Assembly (NCBI GenBank): GCA_001599975.1
Contig: BCIO01000002.1
Location: forward strand, 248,001 to 312,000
Source of the DNA: Cystobasidiopsis lactophilus
Taxonomy: Eukaryota > Basidiomycota > Agaricostilbomycetes > Agaricostilbales > Chionosphaeraceae
Reading direction: 5' to 3'
Length of the DNA: 64,000 nt
The position numbers were made by a program, and so were the translations under genes. Below are positions 19,293 through 63,899 of this stretch, piece by piece (within the stretch, counting starts at the first letter, position 1; each line of letters starts with the position of its first letter). The notes under the pieces were generated by a model. It was given only the letters and a program-made list of their open reading frames with translations. It was not told the DNA's origin and ran no database searches.

Positions 19293-20034
19293 CTATTTGG
19301 GCACTTTGTAGTTTTGGTGGAGCTGTGCAGACGCCACAGATTTGCTCAGTGGACTGTCCAAGCATTACACTGAAGATTGGGGAGCAGGCGACGCACCTCT
19401 GGCTTGAGCTCGATGACCTTGTTGAGCAGCATCTGCACCACCTGGTCCTTGTTCTGGTCGAAGAGCGAGTTGATCTTGACGATCTGCTCGTCGGTCGCCT
19501 TGTCCAGCTCGTCCTGGTTGTGGCTCGAGTCCCCAGAGTGCTGTTCGATTTCCCCAAGAAACATCAGCTCGTACAATAGCTTAGGGGTCAAGAGGGACAC
19601 AACGAACGGCCTTCTCGTCGGACGCGGCCTCGTCCTCCTTCTGCTTCTTGTACGCCTCGACCTCCTTGGCCGCTTCTGACCTGGCGTCCTTTAACCGAGA
19701 TGTGCGGTCTGTTCAGCGTCCCAATCTTATATGAGCTCGGCGTATCATAAGGCAGGCGAGGGTCAACGAACAGTCCCTGGCTTTCTGGACCTGTAGCCAC
19801 ACCGCATTGGCTCCAAATCACAGATCAAAGCACGAGGAGCAAGCCTACGATCTTCTGAGCCTCGCGCTCGGCTTCCTGTGCGATCAAAGCGAAGTCAGAG
19901 ACCGCTTCGAGGGCAGGCGCTGATTAGGAGCTGCGACGCACCAGCAAAGCGTTGATGCCCTGCGAGCTGGCCTGTGCGAGATGCCTGATGTAAGCTATTG
20001 ATCTAGCTGTAGTCCAAGCCTGCAAACGCACCAT
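19293..20034 (-). CDS. VMA10: V-type ATPase subunit G (Vma10)
   Basis: Peripheral-stalk subunit of the vacuolar proton pump. Seven exons give a 117-residue protein, close to the 114 of yeast Vma10: MASSQGINALLEAEREAQKI, then VQKARDYRTSRLKDARSEAA, a Lys/Glu-rich coiled coil, and INSLFDQNKDQVVQMLLNKV ending PELHQNYKVPK. Exons are 20032-20034, 19942-19971, 19849-19875, 19772-19790, 19608-19708, 19397-19540 and 19293-19322. The first coding exon is only the ATG codon; its intron starts directly with GTGCGT. All joints keep the frame and the family pattern, which supports this odd structure. The segment EDEAASDEKAHSG differs from the usual EEEFKKFEAEHSG, so the exon 5/6 joint is the least certain. 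Confidence 0.9.
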
Positions 20035-20688
20035 CTTGAGACCGAGACGAAGGCTGCGCTGGCGCAAGAGGCCGCTGAACTCCCCTGCGGAGCTCGCGCG
20101 AATCGGGCTTGTGGTGCTCCCAGGTCGACCTCCAGAGAGCAGGCTTGGAGAGCAGCCACGATGTTTTGGCTTTGCCTTACTTGGATGCTGCCTTTGAATG
20201 CGTCTGAAGACGGCTGAGCGAATGGCCCACCGAGTGGCCGAGCTCGACGTTGGCGCCGGCTTGAGCTTCAAAGTTCAGCTCGCTCTTCCCCTGCCATGCT
20301 TGCGTCTCCATGAACCATTCCGTCGTCTCTAGTCTCCTGTAAATGCTCCTTGAAGGCTGGTTCGGCTGCTGTCCTCTCTGTCTTCCGTTTAATCGGACTG
20401 TTGAGGCCGAGGAAGTGCTGTTACTCGAAAGGAACCTTCTGTCTACTCTCATTCTGTCTCGTCAGTCGCTGAGCCTTCTGCCTCATTCTGTCTCGACAGT
20501 CGCTGTAGTCCGTGCTACCCTCTTGCTCTCCGAACACCACAGCTACTCCTCAGCTTTCTCATCAAGCGCTGCTCCCGATCCTTGCGCAGCTAGGTACTTC
20601 GCTCGCGTCTTTGATTGGGGCATCCTTGACTGTCACTGACTGAGCGCATTGGCTAACAGAAGCGTTTGCCTTGTCGTAGAACAGCAAG
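20035..20688. other. Divergent promoter region
   Basis: Spacer between VMA10 (-) and the next unknown gene (+). It contains an imperfect direct repeat near 20450-20510 (TCATTCTGTCTCGTCAGTCGCTGAG, then TCATTCTGTCTCGACAGTCGCTGTAG). No supported gene. Confidence 0.5.
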
Positions 20689-33542: not shown

Positions 33543-36500
33543 CTACTGAGCCCAATCTTCGCCAGGATACAGTCTGACGGCTTTGCCGAGAGCGTAAATC
33601 GTCCTGCGAGACCGGAATGAGGAGTCGTTGAAATTGATGAAGGTACTGCTTACCAGGAAAACAGAAAGTTGGGGTACGAGATGGCGCAGCCTGTCAACAT
33701 GAAGTGAGCTCGGCTCATGGTGGCGAAAAGAGCTCGCTTACTCTTGTTGAAGATGCCTTCAATCGCTTCCTGCACTTTGATTCAGAATCATTAAGCAATT
33801 TCGCGAAGGAAAAGAACGCACTCGGTCCCAATGGCCATCGCGCTGCTGCCGAGCCATGATGAGCCTCACGCCGCGCTTGATGGGTTCGACCACGGGGTAT
33901 TTGGCCTTCATGAGCGCTAACAGCGCCCACGAGGTGTTGGTCAACTGAGACGTCACGTTGTGTACATACTGCCCAGTCTCGCAAGACTGTTGCCCCCAGT
34001 TAGGCATATCATACTGGGGAGGAAGGAAATCGGACGCACTCGGAAGCTCTCGCCCCAGCCGCCATCTTCCATTTGACGGGCCAAGAGGAAATCGCAAGCC
34101 TTTTGGACTCTCGTCGAGGTGGCGTAGGTCTCGCCCACGCTCGCCAAGGACTCCAAGGCGAACATGGTGGCGTAGGTGAAGCAAATTCCCCAAGAACCAT
34201 CTGTGAGCGGGTCAGATCGAGTGATGGCTCGGTAACAGCGACGATGCTTACACCAGCTCCCGTCTGCTCGTTGGGCAGAGTGTATATAGCTGATGGCGCC
34301 CTTTTGCATTTGCCTGGGCGCTGTATGAGCGCCCTTCAAAAACGTCTCACGCGAATGAACGTACTTGATGTCAGCAGAGCGATAATGTGGATAGCTTTCG
34401 GTAAAGAGTGAAAGGGCCGTCAAAACCGCGGTTGTGCATTCCGGATAGCTGTAGTCGATCTGTGGAAATTACCCGTATTCAGCATTCGCGTACGCTGCTG
34501 GACAACGGCGACGCTGACCATGATTTTCCCTGCAGTGGATATCAGCTGCCTTTCCGAGTCAAGAAAAGGTCAAGCTCACCGAACACTTCCGCCGGATTCA
34601 GCAGTTCGAGATATTTCGAGCCTCGAGTCTTTTCGTAACTGGCAAACCCGCCGTCGGAGTTTTGCATGCCAAGAAGAAGATCCACCGCATGGCAGAGGCG
34701 GTCTTCGGGCACGAGTTTTGGTGTGTAGCTGGCACGTAGGGTGAGTTCACCACCGCATTCAGAGAATAGGGTACTTACTCGAGAGCTTGGAGCATTAGCA
34801 CTGATTTCAGACCTTCTGCAGTGCAATCCGACACGGTGTAGCCTTGTTCGCGGGTGCTGAACTGCGAGTCCACCTGCACGTTAGCCCAGTCGATGGAAAC
34901 GCAAGAGAAAACTTACCGGCCAAGCCCCCTTGGTAGATTGACGATATCGAGGGTGAGGTGGATCCTCTTTGATTTGACAGTCGTCAAGCCACTCCAAGGC
35001 TTTGATGAGGCTCTCCTTGTTCTCATCGCGTTCGGCCAGGCCACTCTCAACCAGAGCTTGAGTGATAAAGACGATATCCCAAAGTTCTACCATGCCCGTG
35101 AGCCAGAACAAATGATAAATTGAGGAGAAACGTACGGCTGCCGTTGGTGCCGCAGCCCATCATACCCTCGCCGCTGAGCCAGAGGAAGTCTCGGATCTTT
35201 GAGCGATGGAGCTTCATGGCTTCGCTGTTGGGACCCTCCACAATGTAGCGAGAGATCATGTTGAAAATTTTGTTGACTGGCGCCAGATCTTGGTACGAGG
35301 TGTTTTCGTCCTCTTCGACGATGTACTGGTAGGCCAGCTCGACGCCCTTGTTGCGGAAGTAGGGCAAGCACTGAACGAGATAATTTTCGTAGGCCGAGAG
35401 ACCAGCAAAGAGGGTGTCGAGAAGAAGTGGGTGTGCGGTGTAGAGATCAGCTTGCGAAATGTTGTTGCGCTGGGCCGGCCAGTTTATCGACTCGAAAGGC
35501 TGAGGGTAGAGCTCCTGTGCCGCTGTTAGCCTCGAAACACTGCAAAGTGAAGGAAAGCATACTTGACGCAACGAGAGGATCAACTTGTCGACTGGCGTTT
35601 GGAAGCGTCTGGCGAAGAGGAAGCCGAAGGGCACGTAGACTTGACGCATGTGGATCCAATAGCGCCATGGGTGCACCGGAACCCAGTCAGGAAGCAAAAG
35701 AAGTTCAGGCGGCACCACGTTGAGGCCCTCCCAGTCGTAGCAGTTCCTTTGGGGAAGGATCAGCGGAAAGGCCTCAGATGGGTAATCAAGCTCACAAGCA
35801 GGCCAGCAAGAGTTTTCCCCATGACGGTGCGGCGGCAGCTCCTCCTGAATTATTTATGAGATGTGGGTTGTGACTACATTGGGAAGGAGGCCAGCGTACC
35901 CAGGCGATGGAGCGTCTCGCGAGCTTTGACCATAGCAGGTTCATCCGGGGCGACTCCCATAAGACGCAGAATGGCATAGTTCAAGGCAGCTGTGACAGTT
36001 CAAAATCTTTTAGTTTAGTTTCTTGAGTAGCAAAGGTAGTGGCGCTACCCACTTCCATAAACTGTTGATTTCCCTTCGATGTGCCTTAAACCGAAGAACC
36101 TGAGCTGTGGAAAGCGATGCCTGGGCGCAATGGGAGCACTCACAATCCCCAGCCAGAGTCCTCTGGACCCTTTCTGCGTTGTTTGTTGAACAGGTAGCGC
36201 GAAATCTCGATCTTCCACTCCGGAGGTAAGGGCGTCTCCGTCACGTAGCACCCAATCACAATGCCGGGCAGCAAGAACAGCGGGCCGCCATACTCTCCAG
36301 ACTACGCATACCGAACTTCATTAGCAATCATAGAAGGAAGGGGGCGGGGAAGTGCGCGGACCCAATGGCCATCCGGGCTCTGCATGAGCTTGAAGTACTC
36401 GAAGCCATTCTGGGCCGCTTTCAAGGGGTCGCCGTCCGCGTCCTGGAGCATAGGTGCGTCGGTGGGCAGGCCGAGCCAGTGCTTGGACTCAAAGGACTGG

Positions 36501-36673
36501 GCCTGCTCGCGCGGGAACGGGTTCTCGCCTCGAAGCTCGTTGGCGCCCTCGGCGGCCTGGTAGTGCCACACATGCCGCCCGCTGTCGCTCGAGTCGAGGT
36601 GCCATTGAGTCAAATCGGTCGCCCCCAAGGGCGAAGGAGCGCTTTGCTGGACGCTGCCTCGACGGTCTCGCAT
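33543..36673 (-). CDS. ERG7: Lanosterol synthase (oxidosqualene cyclase)
   Basis: Cyclises 2,3-oxidosqualene to lanosterol in ergosterol synthesis, on ER or lipid-droplet membranes. The start at 36673 gives [20 protein letters not shown]. Recognisable parts are the QW-type repeats ([49 protein letters not shown]) and the catalytic acid motif [11 protein letters not shown] near 34830. The membrane-entry region [13 protein letters not shown] and the end [24 protein letters not shown] are also present. Many short introns (at least ten) interrupt it. It ends at TAG 33543-33545, convergent with DHX35. Length is about that of fungal ERG7 (near 730-760 residues). Confidence 0.94.
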
Positions 36674-58978: not shown

Positions 58979-60327
58979 CTAGTCTTGGGGAGTGGTGACC
59001 TTGAACCTGTTGGTCATGCTGATGACACCGGTTCTCAAGAGGGATCAAGGAGAGCGAGGACTAACTTGAGATGCTGCTCATAGAAGAGCAGGGTCTGTGA
59101 TGCGCTGTCTGAGACGTAATTCCAAGCGAAATCAAGGGTGGCGCTCGCTCACCTGCTGGGGCGCCCTGGCGTACATGAGGTCCTTGCCGATCCAGCCCTG
59201 CTCGTGGAAGTCCCTGTTTGTCATCGAATGGACGCGATCAGAAGCAGGTTCTGATGGGGTAGGGATGTTGCACAAACCAGGAGACGAAGAATCGCAGCTC
59301 GCCGTCGTTGACGTCGTCGTCGCGGGTGATGGTCTCGATCTTGTCGATGCGCTCGTCCCAGTTCTTGATCTTGAGCCACCTCTGGATGACCTTCTCCGCG
59401 TCGTCCTCTGGCAGCTGGCCGACGACCACCTCGGGCGAGCCGTTCTTCAAGGGCGAGCCGGTGGACGTCCTGCGGCCGCCGAGCTTCTTGTGGGAGGAGC
59501 CGCCGGAAGTCTCGGCGGGCAGCGAGACGGAGGACTTTCGCTTCTTCTTCTTCTTTTCCGGCTCGGGCTCGGACAGGCGGCGCTTGCTGGGCACGGAGCC
59601 GGCGCTGGTCGAGGTGGGCTTGGGCAGCTTGACGACCGAGCCGGACTCGGACTTGCGGCGGGCCTTCAACTCAGCTTGGTAGGCTTCCAGGAGGTCCGGA
59701 GCCGTGCTGTGGTTCGCAACGACACGATTTTAGAACTGTTTTGGTTGGTTCTGAAAGTGGTGTGCCCGGCAAACTCACGCCAAGTTCTCCTCGGGAATCC
59801 CTGCATATCGCCACGACGAATCAGATGCTAAAACTGATGGTTGTAGTGGCAGAGACATACATGAGTTGTCCTAATGGGGGCAAGACAAATCAGCGAGTTG
59901 CCCCAGAATCAACATCGCTCTGGTCGCTAGGCACTGACCTCCTCTCCGTATCCCTGTGACAGCATCGGCACGTTCATTAGCTATACAGCAAGCTAGTGGC
60001 AGCGGCACTCACGACCCAGCTCTGCAAGCCGAACCACCATACATGAGCCAAGAGGTCGCTAGAAGATGGCTGGACAACTGAGGCCGGCGACTCACGACGA
60101 GGTATTCCTTCTTGCCAGGCGCTCCGCTGTCAGTGACGCGGTCTACTCAGCCACAGAAACAAGGCAGAGGGGCTAAGGGCAAGCAGCGCGGGCTCACCGG
60201 TGCTTCAAGATCCCGCCGACTTCATAGACCTCCTCCGCCCTGTGCTAACTGTGAGCAAGCAGCCCAACGAGCTGTGAGAAAGCCCAATGAATACGCACTG
60301 AGCCTTGCTCTTAGATCCTTTGCCCAT
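58979..60327 (-). CDS. HP1-type protein: chromodomain plus chromoshadow domain
   Basis: Heterochromatin protein that binds methylated histone H3 (Swi6/HP1 type). Eleven exons give 234 residues: MGKGSKSKAQ, chromodomain EEVYEVGGILKHRGAPGKKE YLVSWVGYGEEDNSWIPEEN with Tyr, Trp and Tyr in the places of the aromatic cage. A Lys/Ser-rich hinge follows (KKKKKRKSSVSL), then a chromoshadow domain (RWLKIKNWDERIDKIETITR, LRFFVSW, TLLFYEQHLKF). Exons: 60299-60327, 60198-60239, 60096-60126, 60013-60021, 59939-59953, 59861-59870, 59779-59800, 59278-59706, 59153-59213, 59066-59094, 58979-59006. The chromodomain is cut into pieces as small as 9, 15, 10 and 22 nt, all with GT-AG borders and correct phase. It is about the usual HP1 length. 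Confidence 0.9.
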
Positions 60328-60738
60328 CGTTGTCCTATCGCGAATCGAAACCGGCAAGCTTGGAAGAGGCCAGATGGTCGCTCGGCTCTGACCAGCGCGG
60401 AATGCAAGGTCGCCCAGCCCCGGCGTGGTGCGAATGGCGGGGGGATGGTATTGGTACATAGTAGATTCAGAGAGAGCGATAGAAGTTATCCCCGAGCGAG
60501 CGTGAGCGCAAAGGCCGGTCTCCCGCATTTCATCATGGGCGGAGCAGGCTGCCCTGAGAGGTCTTATCAATGGAACCCCTTGCAGTGGCCTTGCAATGCC
60601 TCTTAGTACTTGTCTGATGCACATCTGAGCTATATTTGAACGGCACACGAGCGAGTTCATGAGCGAGCACAAGCGAAGGACTTGAGAGGCTTGGGTGGCG
60701 TTCGGGGTGGCAAATGCAATAAGTACGGGCTCAAATGA
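60328..60738. promoter_or_regulatory. Promoter of the HP1-like gene
   Basis: Upstream of the HP1-like start on the minus strand. GGTGGCAAA occurs at 60706-60714. No gene supported here, although an open frame on the plus strand at 60112-60606 overlaps the region by composition. Confidence 0.4.
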
Positions 60739-61912
60739 GGTGCATCATAGGCGACCTCTTATGAGCAGGCAGCAAGTTGCACCTGCGAGGTTTCCTCTCC
60801 AAAGCTGCGTGCGTGCTCGACTTTGAGCAAATGGACAAAATGGGCAAGTGGCAGACACTCACAATGCTTAAGCAACCACTTGTAGACGCCCACCTGGTCC
60901 CAAATCTGGTACTGCATGTCCGAGTGGGAGAAGCCGTCCAGCTGGGTGTACGACACGCACTTGCCGCCCTCGCGCTTGATCTGGTCGATGGTGGCGATGG
61001 TCAGGTCGGACGGGTTGGTCGTGTCCGCCGTACTGGCGTCTGTGCGTCAGCGCAGCACTCAAATTAGCCAATCCGCTTAGAACGGGCTAGTGTAAGAGGA
61101 CGCGACGCACAGAAAGCAATGGAAACCTGGGTGGCGTTGGCCAAGAGAGGGAAGGTGGCGGGCACGCCCGGGGCGAGGTAGGAGTTGCCCACGTCTTCAG
61201 CGTAGCCCGACTCGCAGATGGAGGCGGCCCAGGGTTCGGGGTGGAAGGCTAGCTCTCTCATGACGCCGCCTGGATTTGACAAGCAAGATCAGGCTATCGT
61301 TCCATTCGAAGCGGGCGGGGAGGCGGAATGCAGCCTACGGCATCCCACTGCCATGCACGAAGACGCGCTGTAGATCAGCCGAGGTCACAGAGGATCTAAA
61401 GTAGCGTAGCACCGACTCGAATAGCCAGTCAGGTAGGTGCGCTTGTGATCGACGTTGTGCGTCCTTTGGACAAGGCGCAAGATGTCCCTAATGGCGTCCG
61501 GGTCGAAGGTAGAAGTGTTGGCGGGCGCCTAAAGTCTCACGCTTAGGCAAGGTCACGGGACGCGCCAAGGAGCAAGTCCGAACGCACGATTGGGAAGAGC
61601 GTGACGAAGTTCTCATGGATGAAAGTACCCTCGGCAGTGACGTTGCCAGACAGGGTGCCGTTCAGGTAGTAGCCGACGCCAGAGTAAGTGGACGCGACGG
61701 GAGCGCCAGCCAGGTCGGCCTTGGCCCCGGAGCCGGAGAGAAAGGCTAGGAGCGGCCACTGGCCTCGGTGGTGATGGTAGCTCTTGGGCAGAGCGACACA
61801 GTAGGAGTAATCGGTGTGGGGAGCGGGGGCTGCATAGCAAGGCCAGGGCACGACCGTGGCCGAGCAAGCGAGACTGCCGACGAGGCTGAAGAGCAGCAGA
61901 GTGGACTTCATG
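60739..61912 (-). CDS. Secreted esterase, feruloyl/PHB-depolymerase-like alpha/beta hydrolase
   Basis: The start at 61912 gives MKSTLLLFSLVGSLACSATV, a signal peptide. The core has YSYCVALPKSYHHHRGQWPL LAFLSGSGAKADL (oxyanion-strand region) and FIHENFVTLFPI. After an intron come FDPDAIRDILRLVQRTHNVD, KRTYLTGYS and, after a long intron (about 160 nt), SGVMRELAFHPEPWAASICE, so the nucleophile box would be GYSSG, split at the intron. Then follow PATFPLLANATQVSIAF, an intron, ASTADTTNPSDLTIATIDQI, and CVSYTQLDGFSHSDMQYQIW with the likely catalytic His. The 3' end probably has one more small exon and is uncertain. A broken copy lies at 62650-63175. Confidence 0.72.
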
Positions 61913-62432: not shown

Positions 62433-62530
62433 GATAGGAGAGGAGGCAACCCTCGTATTGCAAAGTCTCCGCCGATCCCAGTGGCAAAGTGTGAATTATG
62501 GCTCTACTTTCGATGGCTACGGGCACGCTT
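62433..62530 (-). repeat. Promoter-like direct repeat R1
   Basis: About 98 bp nearly identical to 63902-64000. Contains AGGCAACCCTCGTATTGC and ATTATGGCTCTACTTTCGAT. The following minus-strand DNA (62032-62431) has an open frame with two hydrophobic stretches but no clear ATG, so it may be a remnant. Confidence 0.85.
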
Positions 62531-62649
62531 TTGAGGACCAGAAGGCAGAAAGTTGCACTTGGCCTTTGAAGCTAGAGCTGTGTGTGTCGAATCGCCAATT
62601 GAATGGAGCGAAGTTGCTGTGGTGGCGGCGGCGAGTGCCAGTTTGGCCG

Positions 62650-63175
62650 GGTTGGTAGTGTCTGCGGCGCTGGCGTCTGTGCGAAGAAGGGGTTTGGATC
62701 AGCCTTTCTGTTGAGGACGGGCTAAAAGGGGAGCCTCAACGCACAGAACGCAATTGGGACCTTGGTGGCCTTGCGCAAGAGTGGGAAGGTCGCCGGAACG
62801 CCATGGCTTAGGTATGCGTCGCCAGCTGCTTCAGCGTACCCCGATTCGCAAATCGCTGCGGCGTAGTACTGGAGGTAGTAAACCAGCTCTCTCATCGTAC
62901 CGCCCGAGCATGATGGAAGTGGTGAGCACGCTCTCTGGTGCCAATTGGCTGGCAAAGCAAAGCGTACGACACCCCACTGTTCGCACACAGGCAGCATAAT
63001 CAGCGCGAATCAACGGCTGATAGGAGACAAGGTGCAACGAACCCGAGTAGCCCGTCAGATAAGCCCGCTGCCGGTCGGCATTGTACGACACTTGAACCTT
63101 GAGGAGAATGTCCCCAATGCCGTCGGGATGGAAGGCGCCCGTGTTGGTAGAGGCCTAAAACAGCTTTTGGCCACC
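62650..63175 (-). pseudogene. Truncated copy of the esterase gene
   Basis: Matches the middle of the upstream esterase: ASTNTGAFHPDGIGDILLKV, RQRAYLTGYS, an intron with matching position, GGTMRELVYYLQYYAAAICE, PATFPLLRKATKVPIAFC, and after the next intron ASAADTTNPAK. The signal-peptide exon at the 5' side and the catalytic-His exon at the 3' side are missing, and the flanking DNA shows no match to them. The serine box would also differ (GYS followed by GG). Therefore it cannot make the full enzyme. Confidence 0.75.
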
Positions 63176-63371
63176 TGTAGCCGATGAAGGCGATTCATGG
63201 TTCGGACCAGCAAGAAATGGAACCCGGAAGTCAGCTCACTGGCGCACACCTCGTCAAGCTTCCGGTCACTCATCCATCCAAACCATTCAAGGCTCCGCTC
63301 TGAAGTAGCTGCAAGCGCCTCTATGGACGCAGCGACCTGAGATTATAAGCAATGCAAACGATCAGAAAGTT

Positions 63372-63899
63372 TCACGGTGAGGCGAGGCGAGTACCGTCAC
63401 TCACTATCTCGACATGCTCATCCCACCCCTGCATCTCATCGACGTCTCTGTCCGACCGAAGTGGAGCGGACACCATGTCTCGCCCTTCAGGCTGCCGGCA
63501 GAGTAGGCGCTCCAGAGCAGGCCACATCGTCGTCAAGGGCAGCGAAAGCTCGTCCATAAGGTATGACCACCACATAGTTTCCGGACGGTGAACAGCGTAG
63601 TGCAAGATGATGGCCAACAGCAGGGGGTGTTCCACGAAAAAGCGCCTTGCAGCAGGAGGGGGCGCTTCGCGTACGCCCGTCTCCTTGTTTTCGGAGAGCA
63701 GCAACAAGAAGCTCCTTACTTGCCGGTTCAGATGCTTGAGGGAGTAGAGGCCGCGCTCATAAGCTGACCGTGTGTTCCAGTTCCACACAGGCGACGCTTC
63801 GTCGGCCTTCTTCTGCAAAATGCGTTCCCTTTTGCGGAGGACTTCAGACATGGCCAAAAGCAGCAAAACAAGTCGTCTGCCGTTTGAGATAGCCTCCAT
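63372..63899 (-). CDS. Unknown 175-residue protein downstream of repeat R2
   Basis: The first ATG is at 63899, right at the edge of repeat R2, and gives MEAISNGRRLVLLLLAMSEV. Other parts: LRKRERILQKKADEAS, LKHLNRQVRSFLLLLSENKE, FFVEHPLLLAIILHYAVHRP and MDELSLPLTTMWPALERLLC, mainly amphipathic or hydrophobic helices. It ends RLASP at TGA 63372-63374. I do not recognise it. The promoter-like repeat upstream supports expression from the minus strand. Further exons are possible. Confidence 0.45.
   Translation of the reverse strand: MEAISNGRRLVLLLLAMSEVLRKRERILQKKADEASPVWNWNTRSAYERGLYSLKHLNRQVRSFLLLLSENKETGVREAPPPAARRFFVEHPLLLAIILHYAVHRPETMWWSYLMDELSLPLTTMWPALERLLCRQPEGRDMVSAPLRSDRDVDEMQGWDEHVEIVSDGTRLASP

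Follow-up and report, generated by a model that had tools for sequence, protein, structure and literature searches.

Gene architecture rich in microexons has precedents in fungi of related kinds. The accessible part of a report on bglA genes describes a Rhodotorula minuta bglA whose cDNA defines 22 exons, 10 of them shorter than 30 bp and the shortest of 6 bp, with introns of 60 ± 4 bp that include one of the GC-AG type at microexons; the same source gives a 5-bp exon in the bglA of Sirobasidium magnum (PMC9142197). Microexons are present in about a third of the P450 genes of Phanerochaete chrysosporium, according to the available text of PMC1184071, and exons coding for fewer than 10 residues are called frequent in basidiomycetes in the sections at hand of PMC2897884. 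As far as these sources go, the HP1 gene analyzed here resembles the bglA and P450 genes in having introns near 60 nt and several exons below 30 nt, which reach down to 5-6 bp among the described cases (PMC9142197, PMC1184071). The GC-AG introns at bglA microexons (PMC9142197, available part) likewise have a counterpart in this genome, in an isocitrate dehydrogenase gene. The bglA and P450 products in the available text are enzymes, whereas the present gene is predicted to encode a chromatin reader and has four exons in a row that do not exceed 22 nt.

In plants, microexons no longer than 15 nt are situated inside conserved motifs, e.g. 9-nt exons in AP2 domains (PMC8831610, as excerpted). The present gene shares with them the position of such small exons within conserved protein motifs; however, they belong to another kingdom, and their conservation was tested across species, whereas our results concern one genome (PMC8831610, as excerpted). 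The Trichoderma virens protein Xlr2 has a 20-nt microexon in its DNA-binding domain, the inclusion of which was shown by RNA to be condition-dependent in the available portion of PMC11121469. It is thus a fungal regulator with a DNA-binding domain dependent on a tiny exon, similar to the case described here, but conditional inclusion was demonstrated by RNA there and the present exons are predicted. Fusarium CYP621A also has a microexon within a conserved motif of a fungal protein, but that one is a lone 1-nt exon, backed by transcripts and by 20 orthologues (PMC12940212, accessible text). No report of microexons in a gene for HP1 or another chromodomain protein was found in the literature searched, which covered a minority of subscription journals; in PMC8022950, where microexons and chromodomains are both mentioned, the two have no connection. 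An earlier note on this DNA knew of no description of such a structure. Within the literature searched this stands for HP1 itself, but, judging from the available parts of the sources, conserved domains with multiple microexons have been described in basidiomycetes (PMC9142197, PMC1184071, PMC2897884), and a fungal regulator with a switch-like microexon in its DNA-binding domain has been published (PMC11121469).

We analyzed a 64-kb stretch of DNA, referred to as the window, from a genome of 8 contigs and 22.1 Mb. The HP1 gene is located on the minus strand of the window, and its 11 predicted exons encode a product of 234 amino acids (Table 1). The spliced frame is open over 705 nt, from the ATG at 60327 to a stop codon ending at 58979. 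The ten introns, in order, are 59, 71, 74, 59, 68, 60, 72, 64, 58 and 59 nt long, and all ten have GT-AG ends. Exons 2 to 7, which the earlier note had singled out, were found at the coordinates and with the lengths that it gave, each with AG and GT borders, and their joined frame is open. Exons 4 to 7 are internal and coding in the predicted transcript and fall within the length of about 30 nt or less by which microexons are recognized. Rfam and tRNA scans of the 64-kb window gave no matches.

Table 1. Predicted exons of the HP1 gene, and one intron, with positions in the window.
Feature	Position	Strand	Length (nt)	Content
Exon 1	60299..60327	-	29	From ATG, giving MGKGSKSKA; start codon uncertain
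Exon 2	60198..60239	-	42	Chromodomain start; expected cage residue Y15
Exon 3	60096..60126	-	31	Strand GAPGKKEYLV
Microexon 4	60013..60021	-	9	S35-W36-V37; expected cage residue W36
Microexon 5	59939..59953	-	15	GYGEE; expected cage residue Y39
Microexon 6	59861..59870	-	10	DNS and first base of W46
Intron 6	59801..59860	-	60	Retainable in frame without a stop, the sole one among 10
Microexon 7	59779..59800	-	22	Remainder of W46, and IPEENL
Exon 8	59278..59706	-	429	Chromodomain end, lysine-rich hinge, first part of chromoshadow domain
Exon 9	59153..59213	-	61	Chromoshadow domain
Exon 10	59066..59094	-	29	Chromoshadow domain
Exon 11	58979..59006	-	28	C-terminus and stop

The predicted product is an HP1 protein, as the earlier note had proposed. 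Its two defining domains both score above the Pfam cut-offs: Chromo (PF00385) at residues 15-63 with 48.7 bits (cut-off 25.1) and Chromo_shadow (PF01393) at residues 182-227 with 24.2 bits (cut-off 22.4). The Chromo score was obtained with the microexons joined, and removal of the introns restores the chromodomain core. CBX5 and CBX1 were the best PDB matches of the product, and the Swi6 chromoshadow chain 1e0b also matched it (E 0.00014). Like other members of the HP1/Swi6/CBX1-3-5 family, it combines a chromodomain, a lysine-rich hinge and a chromoshadow domain in one small protein, and nothing in it is unusual beyond ordinary divergence; the difference lies in the gene, which spreads the chromodomain across seven exons. 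Searches for relatives of the protein encoded by exon 8 gave 430 pattern matches in prokaryote genome contigs and 64 in viral contigs, none of them a relative, in collections that are not meant for fungi.

In the CBX1 alignment, residues Y15, W36 and Y39 of the product are matched by Y, W and F, respectively. These positions form the aromatic cage in HP1 structures. The three expected cage residues are located on three separate exons, and the alignment places the Trp and one Tyr on microexons, in agreement with the earlier note. That note had further pointed out that a transcript lacking the 9- or the 15-nt exon would stay in frame but lose cage residues. The predicted transcript bears this out, with W36 and Y39, respectively, as the residues that would be lost. 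The Chromo score decreases from 48.7 bits to 33.6 without the 9-nt exon, to 30.5 without the 15-nt exon and to 25.4 without both. Skipping the 10- or the 22-nt exon singly would cause a frameshift.

The splicing shown in Table 1 is predicted, and two independent methods, spliced alignment and gene finding, agreed on its microexons. We used our own spliced aligner, which compares raw DNA with a protein and allows GT-AG introns. Alignment to mouse CBX1 gave a score of 118.7 and recovered, unaided, every exon border from the end of exon 2 through the beginning of exon 8. When the whole stretch was shuffled with dinucleotides preserved, the maximum CBX1 score was 40.7, and it rose to 74.6 when shuffling was confined to the segment that contains exons 4-7; 118.7 was reached in 0 of 200 shuffles in either series. 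Chance assembly of a chromodomain was ruled out by these controls. CBX5 yielded the same borders as CBX1 and, in addition, the start of exon 2, with the shuffle controls run for CBX1 only. The CDYL alignment ended inside exon 7 and, from the end of exon 2 up to that point, agreed on every border. The second method was our own simple gene finder, based on codon usage, splice-site matrices and intron lengths, with GT-AG introns only, and trained on a 200-kb block of contig C1 that excludes the HP1 gene. It reproduced the Table 1 lengths of exons 2-11, and gave exon 1 a length of 230 nt instead of 29 nt, a possible alternative that begins at an in-frame upstream ATG at 60528. Because the gene finder differs at exon 1 alone, the start codon is still uncertain but the microexons are not. 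An earlier run, which had been seeded with the introns of the HP1 gene itself, gave all eleven exons as listed. When internal exons shorter than 30 nt were forbidden, the HP1 model lost 18.1 bits and the gene split in two.

An exon map that is partly wrong, or a gene that has decayed, would also be conceivable for a map that is predicted from sequence and has an uncertain start codon. We consider this extremely unlikely in view of the agreement between the two methods. Decay in particular was ruled out by a frame that is open through 11 exons and by two HP1 domains above the cut-off.

Our preferred explanation, which we hold to be highly probable, is that this is an intact HP1 gene of the Swi6 type in which the four microexons are constitutively included by intron definition. 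The short GT-AG introns (58-74 nt) would cut the chromodomain so densely that its exons shrink to 9-22 nt. Most likely, the spliceosome would take each short intron as a unit, as intron definition implies, and exon size would then be nearly irrelevant and all four microexons would be constitutive. Intron definition was also proposed by the authors of a splicing survey of 23 fungi (PMC3925392, available text). The resulting protein would read methylated H3K9 by its chromodomain and dimerize via its chromoshadow domain. The analysis shows the gene structure, the open frame, the domain content and comparable microexons in other conserved genes of the genome, whereas we infer the splicing as drawn, constitutive inclusion, intron definition and the protein function.

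The introns adjoining the 9- and 15-nt exons are of ordinary size, compared with a median of 59 nt in a sample of 400 introns. Introns 3 and 4, which flank the 9-nt exon, have donors and acceptors at the 75th-78th percentile of these 400, as scored by matrices that were trained on the same sample introns. The donor of intron 5, which follows the 15-nt exon, scores at the median and its acceptor is weak, at the 10th percentile, so that this intron may be spliced inefficiently; the acceptors of introns 6 and 7 are near the 30th percentile. The acceptor sequence of intron 5, in front of the 10-nt exon, reads ATTAG (window 59871-59875). A point against constitutive inclusion is that the 9- and 15-nt microexons have lengths divisible by three and borders in phase 0, which a cassette exon would require.

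The earlier note had proposed on this basis that splicing might switch H3K9me reading on or off. The 9-nt exon, the 15-nt exon or both would be conditionally skipped, yielding an HP1 that lacks W36 or Y39, is blind to H3K9me and still dimerizes. Each of the two exons carries one expected cage residue, either skip costs 15-18 bits of Chromo score and keeps the chromoshadow domain in frame, and a precedent exists in the condition-dependent 20-nt microexon of the Trichoderma DNA-binding domain (PMC11121469, available portion). However, either skip would create an intron of 142 nt, a length reached or exceeded by 19 of 400 predicted introns. Furthermore, introns 3 and 4 have strong splice sites, and the adjacent 10- and 22-nt exons, half of the four microexons, would shift the frame. 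Multiples of three make up 7 of the 25 predicted microexons in the 200-kb block, which is no excess, and a frame-keeping length is therefore no sign of selection. A chromodomain lacking an exon may also simply fail to fold. Numerous cases of exon skipping have been reported for Cryptococcus neoformans (PMC2219887, accessible part), but the same source counts 12 skipping events among 193 in Ustilago maydis, and skipped exons make up 3% of fungal alternative splicing events across 23 species (PMC3925392, available text). On present evidence, the proposed switch therefore seems unlikely, and we give conditional skipping of these exons a very small chance. The broader suggestion, that the fungus tunes heterochromatin by skipping, with in-frame loss of the cage exons producing a reading-dead but dimerizing HP1, likewise has very little chance of being correct. 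If skipping were true, splicing would be linked to heterochromatin reading.

Variation might instead take the form of intron retention, chiefly of intron 6, which would keep the frame and add 20 residues between S45 and W46. This intron is the only one of the ten with both a length divisible by three and no in-frame stop, its donor (42nd percentile) and acceptor (30th percentile) score below the median of the sample, and retention represents 61% of fungal alternative events (PMC3925392, available text). Nevertheless, chance would be expected to produce roughly one such intron among ten, and we regard retention as very unlikely to be the explanation here. Constitutive inclusion of the four microexons is favored because skipped exons are a small share of the surveyed fungal events, introns of 142 nt or more are few in the sample, and frame-keeping microexons are not in excess. 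Splicing variation, if it occurs, would be likeliest at the weak acceptor of intron 5 and at the in-frame intron 6.

We also surveyed microexons in 264 kb of the genome, consisting of the window and the 200-kb block, counting genes that scored at least 40 bits. The block contained 60 such genes with 341 predicted internal exons, of which 25, in 18 of the genes, were 30 nt or shorter. The window contained 21 genes with 108 internal exons, 15 of which were 30 nt or shorter, in 7 genes including HP1. Exons of 27 nt or less were predicted in 23 genes, and forbidding them lowered the score by more than 5 bits in 18 genes and by a smaller amount in the other 5; these gene-finder counts include errors, as 2 of the 23 genes lost their microexons on rerun and 3 more changed by less than 4 bits. 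The longest run of internal exons of 31 nt or less in the 81 predicted genes was that of HP1, with five, and the runner-up had three. By run length, HP1 is thus the extreme of a microexon habit of this genome, and its array looks like the ordinary architecture of an intron-rich fungus, common in its genome.

Several of these microexons are supported by homology. One such gene, for NADP isocitrate dehydrogenase, is at block positions 33686-31532 and was mapped by spliced alignment to the pig enzyme 1lwd. Its exons were 46, 10, 9, 148, 18, 19, 31, 34, 74, 150, 153, 123, 23, 248, 89 and 49 nt long, the first (46) and last (49) being cut by the ends of the alignment. The 10- and 9-nt exons divide the protein sequence as DGD|EMT|RII|W. 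Two of the 15 introns, both beside microexons, were best modeled as GC-AG, and the alignment score was 1359.0 when such introns were allowed versus 1291.8 with GT-AG only. In the GT-AG-only map the small exons were 14, 9, 18, 28 and 23 nt. The Iso_dh Pfam score rose from 184.3 bits for the gene-finder model to 216.7 bits for the spliced-alignment map. The GC-AG introns are at block positions 33557/33556 and 33100/33099 (contig C1 at about 1,033,556 and 1,033,099).

Pfam scans with and without microexons were paired for HP1, 6-phosphofructo-2-kinase and the V-ATPase G subunit. The 6PF2K score was 218.9 bits with a 22-nt exon and 199.5 bits without it, and the V-ATPase_G score was 107.7 bits with exons of 27 and 19 nt and 73.1 bits without them. 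The V-ATPase G gene, on the minus strand at window 19293-20311, has consecutive exons of 30, 27 and 19 nt in the conserved N-terminus. A gene of the squalene-cyclase family (window 33543-36673, minus strand) has an 11-nt exon within its matched C-terminal domain, and in an enzyme of the PALP family a 25-nt exon carries SSVKDRIA, presumably the PLP-lysine motif. A structure special to chromodomains was ruled out, as isocitrate dehydrogenase, V-ATPase G, 6-phosphofructo-2-kinase and others are built likewise.

The significance of the HP1 array is mostly practical. A six-frame search of the genome with PF00385 gave three matches, none of them inside the window despite the HP1 gene there; the matches lie in a frame on contig C3 that we take by eye to encode an eEF3-type ABC protein and in frames on contig C5 that we take to encode a Chd1-type remodeler. 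The eEF3-like frame, together with the gene architecture and the HP1 itself, suggests that the DNA is fungal, and the intron density and microexons suggest a basidiomycete-like source. The corresponding search with PF01393 gave no match in this genome, although the HP1 of the window has a chromoshadow domain. Both domains were missed because the exons are too short. Since the PF01393 search misses a known HP1, absence of paralogues cannot be claimed from it. PF05033 (Pre-SET, a mark of H3K9 methyltransferases) had no six-frame match in this genome, nor in the control genomes, and PF00856 (SET) gave 21 rows in this genome, unsorted by family. A claim that a fungus lacks HP1 or another small-domain protein may be mistaken in genomes with exons as small as those missed by the PF00385 and PF01393 searches. 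The gene also offers a clean test of whether intron definition alone lets fungal spliceosomes process consecutive exons of 9 to 22 nt.

Finally, two neighboring gene pieces on the minus strand of the window, at 60731-61261 and 62504-63899, share near-identical stretches (ICESGYAE..., GVPATFPLL... and ADTTNP...). They look like a local duplication of a gene resembling those for secreted esterases, and at least one of the copies is perhaps broken.
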